The position numbers and the translations under genes were made by a program. Source: Gammaproteobacteria bacterium (lineage in GTDB: Bacteria > Pseudomonadota > Gammaproteobacteria > GRL18). Taken from it: a stretch of 32,529 nucleotides of DNA. The stretch spans positions 1-32,529 of the forward strand of contig JALTKC010000545.1 in NCBI GenBank assembly GCA_027076245.1, given 5' to 3'. Below are positions 4,434 through 22,026 of this stretch, piece after piece (within the stretch, counting starts at the first letter, position 1; each line of letters opens with the position of its first letter). Below the pieces are notes generated by a model. That model saw only the letters and a list, made by a program, of their open reading frames with translations. It was not told the DNA's origin and searched no databases.

Positions 4434-5534
4434 ATGAAAAATAGTTTACTACCGACATACCTGAAAACATTACTCTTACCACTGATGTTTTTTATCAATC
4501 CGGTCAATGCCGCTGGTGAGGGACAGCTTAAAGAGGGACTGGTTAATCCCGGCTTTTATGACAAGCCGGCCTGGTTTAAACAGAGCTTTCTGGATCTGCA
4601 GGATGATCTGGAAGACGCAAATGCCAGTAATAAAATAATTTTTTTATACTTTCATCAGGATGGCTGCCCATACTGTAAAAAAATGCTGGAAGTTAATTTT
4701 ACCGACAAAGATATTGTCAATAAAATGAAACAGCATTATGACGTGCTGGAAATCAATATGTGGGGTGATCGGCCGGTGACCTTAATGGACGGCACCGAAG
4801 TGACTGAAAAAGAATTTGCCCGCCGGATGAAGGTTATGTTTACGCCCACTCTGGTGGCACTGGATCCCCAGGGTAAACCCATGTTCCGTATAAATGGATA
4901 TTATGCGCCCGACAAGTTTACCGTGGTACTGGATTATTTATTACTAAAAAAACAAAAACTGGCCAGTGGTGAAAAGAATATCCCGACGTTTAAAGATTAT
5001 TATCAACAGAAAAAAAACGAGCAGAAAACCGCCAAACCATCGTCTGGACTGTTTACAGAAAAGTTTATTGTTAAAACAGATAATCTTAAACAGCTGATAG
5101 AATCCAGTCAGCGTCCGGTCATGATTTTATTTGAACAGGCTGATTGTGCTGAATGTAAGGAACTGCATGGTGATGTGTTCAGGCGCTTGCCGGTTTATCA
5201 GAAGTTAAAAAAATACACCATTGCTCAGGTGGATATTAATTCCCCGGAGCAGATAACTACCCCGGATGGCCGAAAAATATCTCAGCAGGACTACGCTATA
5301 GAACTGGGCATACAGTACACCCCCTCCATTTATTTTTATCAGCCGGGTCAGAAGGGCGCCGAACATAAACCGGTTTTTAAAGCCGAGGCCTATTTAAAAT
5401 CCTTTCATATGCAGGTTCTGTTTGATTACGTACTGCAGCAGGCTTATCTTGAAGAACCAGAATTTCAGCGTTATGTTCAGGATTATGCGGAGAAGCTACG
5501 GGAAGAAGGCAAGGAGGTGGACCTGTGGAAATAG
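4434..5534 (+). CDS. Exported thioredoxin-fold protein with two thioredoxin-like domains (SoxW/thioredoxin_2-like)
   Basis: N-terminal signal-like segment (LLLPLMFFINPVNA); first CxxC FLYFHQDGCPYCKKM, second CxxC ILFEQADCAECKEL; each followed by a cis-Pro-type TPTLVA / TPSIYF strand. Confidence 0.85.
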   Translation: MKNSLLPTYLKTLLLPLMFFINPVNAAGEGQLKEGLVNPGFYDKPAWFKQSFLDLQDDLEDANASNKIIFLYFHQDGCPYCKKMLEVNFTDKDIVNKMKQHYDVLEINMWGDRPVTLMDGTEVTEKEFARRMKVMFTPTLVALDPQGKPMFRINGYYAPDKFTVVLDYLLLKKQKLASGEKNIPTFKDYYQQKKNEQKTAKPSSGLFTEKFIVKTDNLKQLIESSQRPVMILFEQADCAECKELHGDVFRRLPVYQKLKKYTIAQVDINSPEQITTPDGRKISQQDYAIELGIQYTPSIYFYQPGQKGAEHKPVFKAEAYLKSFHMQVLFDYVLQQAYLEEPEFQRYVQDYAEKLREEGKEVDLWK

Positions 5535-5544
5535 GCCGGTCACA

Positions 5545-6087
5545 TTAATAGTTCTTTCTGATTAAAATATAAACGGCTCCGGTTCCCCCGTCTCTGGGCT
5601 GGGCAGATGAAAAAGCCAGCACATCGGGGTGCTGTCTCAGCCAGCTGTTAACCTTGTTTTTTAATACTGGCTGTTCAGAATCGGCCCGGTAGCCTTTGCC
5701 ATGTACCAGCAGGACACAGCGCATCTGTTGCTGCTGGGCAAACTGAATAAAGGCCTGCAGATCGTCCCGGGCATCATCACTGGTTAAACCGTGCAGATCA
5801 TGATGGTCTTCAATGGGCAGTTTGCCCTGGCGAAGCTGTTTCTGAAGTTTTAACTGCACACCGGACCGGGCAAAAAAGATAAATTCTTCACCGGTAACAT
5901 TAGCTGTTTCCCAGGCATCAGAGAGCATACTGTTCTGCTGGGGTTCGGAATAATCATTTTTATCTCGAAATGGCCGGGTATTTCGATTATGCGCATAGAG
6001 GTCAATACGGTCTGTTTTAAGCGGTTTTACCCCTTTTATCGCCTCCTGAAAACTGAAATCCTCATCATCTGCGTGTTTTTTGCTCAT
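5545..6087 (-). CDS. Smr domain protein (SmrA/MutS2 C-terminal-like)
   Basis: DHHDLHGLTSDDARDDLQAFIQFAQQQQMRCVLLVHGKGYR...LKNKVNSWLRQHPDVLAFSSAQPRDGGTGAVYILIRK: LHG and HGKG signatures. Confidence 0.92.
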   Translation of the reverse strand: MSKKHADDEDFSFQEAIKGVKPLKTDRIDLYAHNRNTRPFRDKNDYSEPQQNSMLSDAWETANVTGEEFIFFARSGVQLKLQKQLRQGKLPIEDHHDLHGLTSDDARDDLQAFIQFAQQQQMRCVLLVHGKGYRADSEQPVLKNKVNSWLRQHPDVLAFSSAQPRDGGTGAVYILIRKNY

Positions 6088-6205
6088 AATTTCGTAAAAT
6101 ACCTGAAAAATATCATGTAAATGTATGAAAAAAGTCTGTTTTTAAGTATTATCTCATGTGGTTTGAGCAAAATAAAATAATTATCGACATAATATATACA
6201 ACTCT

Positions 6206-7033
6206 ATGCACATTCTTGTAAGTAATGATGATGGTTACCTGGCTGAGGGGCTGGTTTGCCTGGTGGAACATCTGCAGAAAATTGCCCGGGTGACAGTGGT
6301 TGCACCGCAGGCCGATCGCAGTGGTGCCAGTAATTCTCTGACTCTGGACAGACCCTTATTACCGGAACAGGCTGCAAATGGTTTTATTGCCATTAACGGT
6401 ACTCCAACGGATTGTGTCCATATCGCTATTACAGCCATATTGAGAAATGATCCCCCGGATATTATTGTTTCGGGAATCAATCGCGGACCTAATCTTGGGG
6501 ATGATATTCTGTATTCCGGTACTGTAGCCGCCGCAACGGAAGGGCGCTTTCTGGGCTTGCCGGCTATTGCGGTTTCACTGGGCAGTTTTGAGGGTAAGTA
6601 TTTTTCTACGGCAGCACAGGTGGTAGTAGAGATTATTGAGAAACTGCAGCAGGAACCCCTGAACGCGGATACCATTTTAAATATTAATGTGCCGGATATT
6701 GAATATTCGCAACTGGAAGCATTTCAGGCTACCCGGCTGGGCAAGCGGCATAAGGCAGAACCGGCAGTGGAAGCCGTCGATCCTCGTAATAGAAAAGTGT
6801 ACTGGCTGGGGCCGGTTGGTGATGAAGCGGATGCCGGGCCGGGCACGGATTTTTATGCGCTTAACAACAACCGGGTATCCATTACACCCATCAAAATTGA
6901 TCTGACCAATTATGAGCTGTTAAATTCTGTTGAACACTGGCTGAAGACTTTAAATAACACGGATAAGCATAATAAGGCTATTAATAATAGTAATAGCAGC
7001 GATAATAAAAAAGGACGGGATAAAGCACAATGA
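6206..7033 (+). CDS. surE: 5'/3'-nucleotidase SurE
   Basis: MHILVSNDDGYLAEGLVCLVEHL...VVAPQADRSGASNSLTLDRPL...NGTPTDCVHIAI...DIIVSGINRGPNLGDDILYSGTVAAATEG. Confidence 0.97.
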   Translation: MHILVSNDDGYLAEGLVCLVEHLQKIARVTVVAPQADRSGASNSLTLDRPLLPEQAANGFIAINGTPTDCVHIAITAILRNDPPDIIVSGINRGPNLGDDILYSGTVAAATEGRFLGLPAIAVSLGSFEGKYFSTAAQVVVEIIEKLQQEPLNADTILNINVPDIEYSQLEAFQATRLGKRHKAEPAVEAVDPRNRKVYWLGPVGDEADAGPGTDFYALNNNRVSITPIKIDLTNYELLNSVEHWLKTLNNTDKHNKAINNSNSSDNKKGRDKAQ

Positions 7034-20044: not shown

Positions 20045-20093
20045 AGCAATAATGGCTGTAGATGGCTGTTTTAGTCATGAGAATAAAACACTT

Positions 20094-20118
20094 AAGCCCC
20101 TATAAAGGGGCTTTTTTT
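20094..20118 (+). terminator. Intrinsic terminator after gltS
   Basis: AAGCCCC-TATAAA-GGGGCTTTTTTT hairpin plus T-run. Confidence 0.93.
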
Positions 20119-20163
20119 GTGCATTTAAATTTTTTTTGCTAACACTAAGCTGTAATTTTCCTA

Positions 20164-20180
20164 TTAAAGTAGTACTTTAA
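20164..20180. repeat. 17-bp near-spacerless palindrome
   Basis: TTAAAGTA-G-TACTTTAA, perfect 8-bp arms, single central base. Confidence 0.9.
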
Positions 20181-20333
20181 GATTGTTTTTACAATATTAC
20201 AGTCTTTAGTTAATGTATATTATAAGAAGTTATAATAACTCGTTGAATAATAAGAAGAATGTGAAGTGGTTAAAAATTAATCAATTTATGCATCTTTCAA
20301 TGTTAATGCTGTTTCTAGGAAGATATTAAAAGC

Positions 20334-20379
20334 TTATTCACAGACTTATCCACAGCTTTTGTGGATAAAATTATACATA
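20334..20379. promoter_or_regulatory. DnaA-box cluster
   Basis: TTATTCACA (20334-20342), TTATCCACA (20346-20354), inverted TGTGGATAA (20360-20368), all matching TTATNCACA; plus TTATACATA (20371-20379), one mismatch. Confidence 0.75.
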
Positions 20380-20631
20380 ATTATTTGAATTAATCTAAAA
20401 CTTGTCCTTTTTTACTATAACGACTAAATTTATTATAAAGCCTGTATTTTTTATGGTTTACTTTTACTGTACTGTTTGTTTATCAGGCAGGGTTCTGGGT
20501 ATAAAAAGCTATAGAGTTTTTTGTAAAATACAGCTAAAATCCATGTTTTCTGATTTTCTGTTTCATTTGCAAACTAAAAAATTAATGAACCAGAAACCGC
20601 TTAATTTTCTAAAACTGAGGGTCTTAATAAA

Positions 20632-20934
20632 ATGTCAGTTCTTACCAGCATGTCAGATGATGGAGATATTTTGACAATAAAAGTGATTGGTAAGTTTCAG
20701 TTTCCCCTCGCTTCAGAATTTCGTCGAGCTTATACGGATATTGATCAGGTACAGAACTATGTTCTGGATTTACAGGATTCAGAATATCTGGATTCTTCCG
20801 CCCTGGGAATGATCATTGCTCTGTGGGAATTTGTAGAACGGGACAAGGCCCGCATTAAAATTATTAATGCCAATACTGAGGTGACTCAAATCCTGCAAAG
20901 TGCCAACTTTGATCAACTGGTTACTTTACCCTGA
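20632..20934 (+). CDS. STAS-domain protein (anti-sigma factor antagonist-like)
   Basis: DILTIKVIGKFQFPLASEFRRAYTDIDQVQNYVLDLQDSEYLDSSALGMIIALWEFVERDKARIKIINANTEVTQILQSANFDQLV: typical DSSALGM phosphoserine motif. Confidence 0.9.
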   Translation: MSVLTSMSDDGDILTIKVIGKFQFPLASEFRRAYTDIDQVQNYVLDLQDSEYLDSSALGMIIALWEFVERDKARIKIINANTEVTQILQSANFDQLVTLP

Positions 20935-21066: not shown

Positions 21067-22026
21067 ATGCTTGATACTTTACCCCTTTTAAAAGCTATAA
21101 ACTTTCCTCATATCAGGCGTAAGCAGCTGGATATACTGCAGATTAATCTGGGTTACCGCTGTAACCAGCAGTGTCAGCACTGCCATGTCAATGCCGGGCC
21201 TAAACGAACGGAAACGATGTCTGTTGAAGTTCTGGCCGATATTCTCCGCTTTATTAAAACCAATGGTATTAAAACGGTGGATCTGACCGGTGGAGCACCG
21301 GAAATGCATCCTGAATTTTTATCCCTGATAAAGCAGCTTAATAAGATGCAGGTGCATATTATTGATCGCTGTAACCTGACAATACTCAATGAACCGGGTT
21401 ATGAATCCCTGGTGGAAAAGCTGGCAGAAAATCGTGTTGAAATTGTGGCTTCCTTGCCCTGTTATATGGAAGAAAATGTGGATAAACAAAGAGGTAACGG
21501 GGTATTTAAAAGTAGTATCGAGGCTTTGCAGAAACTTAATCAACTGGGCTACGGGCAACCCGACAGCCCGTTAACTCTTAATCTTGTTTATAATCCACAG
21601 GGTGCGGTACTGGCCCCTTCACAGGAAGTACTTAAAACGGATTACAAGAAATTTCTGGCACAACAGTTTGGTATTGTGTTTAACGAACTCTTTACCATTA
21701 CCAATGTCCCGGTTAAACGTTTCGGCAGTCTGTTAATATCCAGGCAGGAGTTTCAGCCCTATATGGAATTATTGCAGCAATCTCATACTGATGCTAATCT
21801 GGACGGTGTTATGTGCCGCTATCAGTTAAGCGTGGACTGGCAGGGTTATTTATATGACTGTGATTTTAATCAGATGCTGGGGTTGCCCTTAACCAGAACA
21901 ACAGAAAAACTGCATATTTCCAATGTCAGTCTGACTGAACTGAATAATAAGGATATTATCGTTGCAGGTCATTGTTATGCCTGTACCGCAGGGCAGGGCA
22001 GCAGTTGCGGTGGTGCCCTGAGCTGA
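21067..22026 (+). CDS. Radical SAM protein of the ArsS / radical SAM-Cys-rich domain family
   Basis: INLGYRCNQQCQHCHVNAGPKRTETMS (CxxxCxxC), VDLTGGAPEMHPEF, ASLPCYMEENVDKQRGNGVF, LNLVYNPQGAVLAPSQEVLKTDYKK, C-terminal GHCYACTAGQGSSCGGAL. Confidence 0.92.
   Translation: MLDTLPLLKAINFPHIRRKQLDILQINLGYRCNQQCQHCHVNAGPKRTETMSVEVLADILRFIKTNGIKTVDLTGGAPEMHPEFLSLIKQLNKMQVHIIDRCNLTILNEPGYESLVEKLAENRVEIVASLPCYMEENVDKQRGNGVFKSSIEALQKLNQLGYGQPDSPLTLNLVYNPQGAVLAPSQEVLKTDYKKFLAQQFGIVFNELFTITNVPVKRFGSLLISRQEFQPYMELLQQSHTDANLDGVMCRYQLSVDWQGYLYDCDFNQMLGLPLTRTTEKLHISNVSLTELNNKDIIVAGHCYACTAGQGSSCGGALS

Follow-up and report, generated by a model that had tools for sequence, protein, structure and literature searches.

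The gltS-STAS intergenic region and its DnaA boxes

The window (the whole stretch of DNA analysed here, 32,529 nucleotides in length) carries a 587-bp intergenic stretch between gltS and a gene for a STAS-domain protein. The G+C content of this stretch (20045-20631) is 26.9% compared with 43.1% for the window, and a terminator-like hairpin is visible behind gltS. Both the AT-rich gap and the gltS terminator had been described in an earlier note made from the DNA letters alone. The features of the region are listed in Table 1.

Table 1. Features of the gltS-STAS intergenic region and the gene downstream of it (positions in the window).
Feature	Position	Strand	Sequence	Remarks
Terminator-like hairpin and T-run after gltS	~20094-20118	+		Read directly from the sequence
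IHF consensus (TAAnnnnTTGATW, 1 mismatch)	20236-20248	+	TAACTCGTTGAAT	Predicted; starts 98 bp before box III
Fis consensus (GnnYAnnnnnTRnnC, 0 mismatches)	20268-20282		GGTTAAAAATTAATC	Predicted; starts 66 bp before box III
Conserved block of roughly palindromic sequence	20299-20329		AATGTTAATGCTGTTTC...GATATTAA	Lies between Fis consensus and core; 15-orthologue alignment
DARS-type core (DnaA boxes III, II, I)	20334-20368	+		Geometry as in the E. coli DARS1 and DARS2 cores
DnaA box III, exact	20334-20342	+	TTATTCACA	Position kept in 15/15 orthologues
DnaA box II, exact	20346-20354	+	TTATCCACA	
DnaA box I, exact	20360-20368	-	TTATCCACA	Head-to-head with box II, 5-bp gap
One-mismatch box	20371-20379	+	TTATACATA	Not conserved even within the genus
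STAS-domain gene	20632-20934	+		Downstream of the element; Pfam PF01740, E 1.3e-10

The same note had reported a tight cluster of DnaA boxes at this place, and its three exact boxes, two of which (II and I) form the perfect inverted pair, were all recovered. The fourth box that it had added, TTATACATA, is indeed present, but the relatives do not share it. As a possible symmetric arm of the array, this box has two mismatches in the reverse pattern and is not conserved, and it was rejected in that role; it probably lies outside the element. A lone perfect TTATCCACA is found on the minus strand at 21477-21485, within the radical SAM gene approximately 1.1 kb from the core.

The core of the E. coli DnaA-reactivating sequences (DARS) consists of DnaA boxes I, II and III, which are equally spaced in DARS1 and DARS2, with box I oriented opposite to boxes II and III (PMC5742627). 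The core in the window has the same number, orientation and spacing of boxes. As expected of a DARS, it is intergenic and probably lies away from oriC. The candidate IHF and Fis sites are both in the flank that adjoins box III; it should be noted that their consensus sequences are short and AT-tolerant.

Copies in the source genome and conservation in the family

The source genome, that of an uncultured gammaproteobacterium, is an incomplete 3.2-Mb draft in 590 contigs. The earlier note had proposed that TTATNCACA be counted genome-wide and its local clustering examined. The count of TTATNCACA was 158 against 54 for the reversed control, which indicates that single boxes are enriched and tight clusters are rare. 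As TTATNCACA occurs only about once per 20 kb, three boxes within 35 bp are not a matter of chance. Among these matches, the three-box spacing of the window core (plus strand, 12 bp, plus strand, 14 bp, minus strand) recurred elsewhere in the genome, and it was then searched directly as TTATNCACA-3-TTATCCACA-5-TGTGGATAA. The full 35-bp geometry without mismatch was present exactly three times, namely in the window and on contigs C52 and C257, and its reversed control gave no match in the same genome. The box cluster is real and far from chance.

The three exact copies sit beside unrelated genes: the C52 copy adjoins a gene for a MOSC-domain protein, and an HD-domain gene starts about 0.4 kb from the C257 copy on its box III side. 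The same 5-kb contig C257 also carries, at 57-77, boxes II and III at the correct 12-bp spacing without box I. An origin as a mobile repeat or MITE was considered and rejected, as only the binding sites, and not the flanks, are common to the copies, and the synteny of the window copy extends over two genera. A search for near-identical plasmid DNA gave no match.

Conservation in relatives, another check that the note had suggested, was confirmed for the core, which stands upstream of the STAS, radical SAM and glycosyltransferase genes in a further 14 genomes from this family. The gltS gene lies upstream in those same-genus genomes for which this flank is present in the data, and not in the other genus. 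An alignment of the 15 orthologous intergenic regions showed a conserved, nearly gap-free block upstream of the core, followed by a poorly conserved stretch of 163 to 373 bp between the core and STAS. The Fis consensus starts exactly at -66 relative to box III in all 15 orthologues (13 perfect, two with one mismatch), and the IHF consensus (TAAnnnnTTGATW) is at -98 in all of them with 0-2 mismatches. A perfect Fis consensus at -66 is also found in the C52 and C257 copies and in most other copies of the relatives. In these copies, the IHF consensus mostly falls at -108 or -109, roughly one helical turn farther from the core than in copies of the STAS type.

The synteny with the STAS and radical SAM genes in the family could be read as the sign of a DnaA-controlled promoter, in which repression or activation of these genes by DnaA would be the selected function. 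E. coli offers a parallel, since DARS1 overlaps the promoter uvrBp3, which is repressed by DnaA (PMC6015884). However, the distance from the core to the gene start varies within the range given above, while the IHF-Fis-core spacing is fixed; one genome retains the core before the radical SAM gene with no STAS gene between them; and the copies of the same architecture adjoin unrelated genes. We consider the promoter reading unlikely as the main explanation. As the case of DARS1 shows that DARS and promoter functions can coexist, DnaA control of STAS may be a side effect of the element.

An origin of chromosomal replication (oriC), which the earlier note had left open in a non-canonical form, would account for the presence of DnaA boxes in AT-rich DNA between genes. 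Against this, the locus is not unique, with three equivalent copies per genome. The dnaA gene is absent from the incomplete draft and present in relatives of the same genus, and none of the 15 dnaA-region loci of the family contains such a core. The E. coli oriC region has no match to the DARS-type core either. This option hardly deserves credence, and we return to the element as a DARS candidate.

Comparison with the E. coli sites and with other genomes

The closest comparison is with DARS2 of E. coli, which lies upstream of mutH and has the same III-II-I spacing and orientation. Its IHF and Fis sites, too, flank the core on the side of box III. DARS2 requires both proteins on this side, and shifting their sites by 5-10 bp lowers its activity (PMC4245941). 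Nevertheless, the two loci differ in several respects. In DARS2 the IHF site is the nearer one (59-87 bp before the start of box III) and the Fis site the further one (111-125 bp), whereas in the window Fis is at 52-66 bp and IHF at 86-98 bp, so that the order is core-Fis-IHF and not the core-IHF-Fis order at E. coli distances. Moreover, the boxes of DARS2 are imperfect, while all three core boxes of the window are perfect, and the neighbouring genes are different. Because the same proteins would act from the same side in the opposite order, we regard the element as a DARS variant distinct from DARS2.

DARS1, located between bioD and uvrB, shares the core geometry with the window as well. Its flank contains a degenerate IHF-like sequence, TAACCAGTTAAAA, near -99, and, unlike the window, it lacks a strict consensus for either Fis or IHF at the offsets conserved elsewhere. 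DARS1 is active in vitro without IHF or Fis (PMC5742627). Its neighbouring genes also differ from those of the window. Orthology with DARS1 or DARS2 by neighbouring genes was rejected, as none of the fetched loci had a match to uvrB, bioD, mutH or rppH. Relative to the class-wide core pattern, the MG1655 cores of DARS1 (TAATACACATGGTTATCCACAGGAATAGTGGATAA) and DARS2 (TTCTTCACAACTCTATCCACAGAAAAGGTGAATAA) have two and three mismatches, respectively. The DnaA ChIP-seq peaks at both sites list the III-II pairs as double boxes (PMC11317965).

The locus also resembles datA of E. coli, which is intergenic too and combines DnaA boxes with an IHF site. The IHF consensus near the boxes of the window could suggest a datA-like site promoting the IHF-dependent hydrolysis of DnaA-bound ATP, an effect opposite to that of DARS. 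In datA, however, the IHF site is between DnaA boxes 2 and 3 (PMC5742627), whereas here the IHF consensus is outside the box cluster, about 86 bp from the core. Furthermore, datA has no counterpart of the inverted box I and matches the DARS-type core with six mismatches at best. A datA-like function is very improbable. Thus, among the options raised by the earlier note, the DARS-like one was upheld by the core geometry, copy number, synteny and fixed IHF and Fis consensus sites, and the oriC and datA ones were not.

The core was then searched for beyond the family. With at most one mismatch, it was present in 125 of 369 genomes of the class, while the reversed pattern was found in none of the 369. 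A chance origin of the core was rejected, as the reversed pattern had no match in sets of 76, 369 and 160 genomes. When TTATCCACA followed by its inverse within 20 bp was searched for, pairs were found in 86 of 185 genomes; among the matches listed, with III-I pairs set aside, all but one have the 5-bp gap between II and I. In a sample of 29 cores, 26 are outside open reading frames of at least 100 aa, as compared with approximately a quarter expected for random positions. In a phylum-wide sample, a core-like match occurred in 16 genomes outside the class (control, 0).

The positions of the flanking sites were measured in 120 cores outside the family, some of which come from one genus and are not fully independent. 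A perfect Fis consensus at -67 to -65 was present in 50 of these 120 cores, exactly at -66 in 37 of them (shuffled sequences: mean 0.3, maximum 2). The IHF consensus with at most one mismatch was found at -100 to -97 in 69 (shuffles: mean 0.5, maximum 3), and both sites together in 35 (shuffles: 0). The flanks were also scored with a weight matrix built only from the sequences of other families. The z-score was 6.6 for the window copy and 4.9 and 5.0 for the other two copies of the same genome; E. coli DARS1 and DARS2 scored 4.2 and 1.7.

These regularities bear on the possibility that the site serves in DnaA titration only, its high-affinity boxes soaking up DnaA without nucleotide exchange. 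Perfect boxes with a high expected affinity and several copies per genome would suit such a role. Titration, however, requires neither an inverted pair with a fixed 5-bp gap nor fixed offsets of the IHF and Fis sites, and we judge titration alone to be quite improbable.

Several other observations were made during this survey. Some 11 bp ahead of box III, many of the class-wide cores L146-L265 have a weak box similar to TTTACCCCA, and in many a TTAG/GTTAGC motif follows box I at a distance of about 25-35 bp; TCATCCACA is a frequent form of box III in these cores. Pairs of cores 0.4-2.3 kb apart within one genome were seen in G254:C209, G089:C3 and G220:C15. Outside the class, two cores overlap at G424:C13:38655-38701 and make up a symmetric array of four boxes. 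A Methylococcales MAG (L071, JAPLRW010000292.1) carries at 5485-6624 a tandem array of 3.5 copies with a period of 322 bp and 79% matches, in which whole elements are repeated head-to-tail; it contains four DARS cores, and every one of them has its IHF consensus at -96. An exact core is also present in seventeen contigs of the IMG/VR viral collection (L089-L105), most of which lack the Fis/IHF flank. Seven short contigs of that collection (about 4-8 kb) have an identical 35-mer, TTATCCACATACTTATCCACAGAAACTGTGGATAA, in common and may represent a phage or plasmid replicon with a DARS-like core.

A probable DARS-type element and its significance

Taken together, the comparison with E. coli and the sequence patterns suggest that the element is a DARS, probably controlled by IHF and Fis; we put the probability of this at roughly 0.75. 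The genes of the proteins it would need are at least partly in view in the draft. It encodes a Fis protein with 59% identity to that of E. coli and an IHF-beta subunit scoring above the curated cut-off, and a partial match to the DnaA family has the size expected for Hda and is a candidate for it.

In E. coli, the DARS core converts ADP-DnaA to ATP-DnaA by means of a head-to-head contact between the DnaA molecules on boxes I and II and DNA bending by IHF and Fis (PMC4245941, PMC8682772). By analogy, we infer protein binding, ADP release and a role in initiation timing for the element described here. Boxes III, II and I would be bound by ADP-DnaA, and the molecules on II and I would meet head to head. 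DnaA on box III, in tandem with that on box II, would stabilise the assembly. Bending of the flanking DNA by IHF at -98 and Fis at -66 would then remodel the assembly so that ADP is released, and the freed apo-DnaA would take up ATP and become able to start the next round at oriC, located elsewhere.

According to reviews, sequences similar to DARS1 and DARS2 exist in many proteobacteria (PMC10380432). DARS-like sequences were reported in V. cholerae (PMC6090056), and DARS2 flanks of the E. coli type have been described for its close relatives (PMC4245941, PMC8682772). In the literature that was searched, we found no report of the layout with IHF at -98 and Fis at -66, of its recurrence across the class or of the STAS locus. 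As DARS-like sequences were already known, the site is best described as a probable DARS element with an IHF-Fis-core layout for which we found no earlier report.

We tentatively propose, at somewhat less than even odds, that the DARS of Gammaproteobacteria ancestrally had, and most commonly still have, the arrangement IHF(-98)-Fis(-66)-box III-II-I, with one to four copies per genome, and that DARS1 and DARS2 of E. coli are derived. If this is true, DARS1 would be a copy in which the Fis consensus was lost and the IHF site weakened, and DARS2 a copy in which the order of the two sites is reversed.

Most of what is known about the mechanism of DnaA reactivation comes from E. coli. An element that is defined by its sequence, has rigidly spaced IHF and Fis sites and occurs in many Gammaproteobacteria would be recognisable even in unannotated drafts. 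With it, one could test which bacteria rely on a DARS-type ATP/ADP switch and how many sites they need, as well as whether it is the geometry of bending or the order of the proteins along the DNA that matters.
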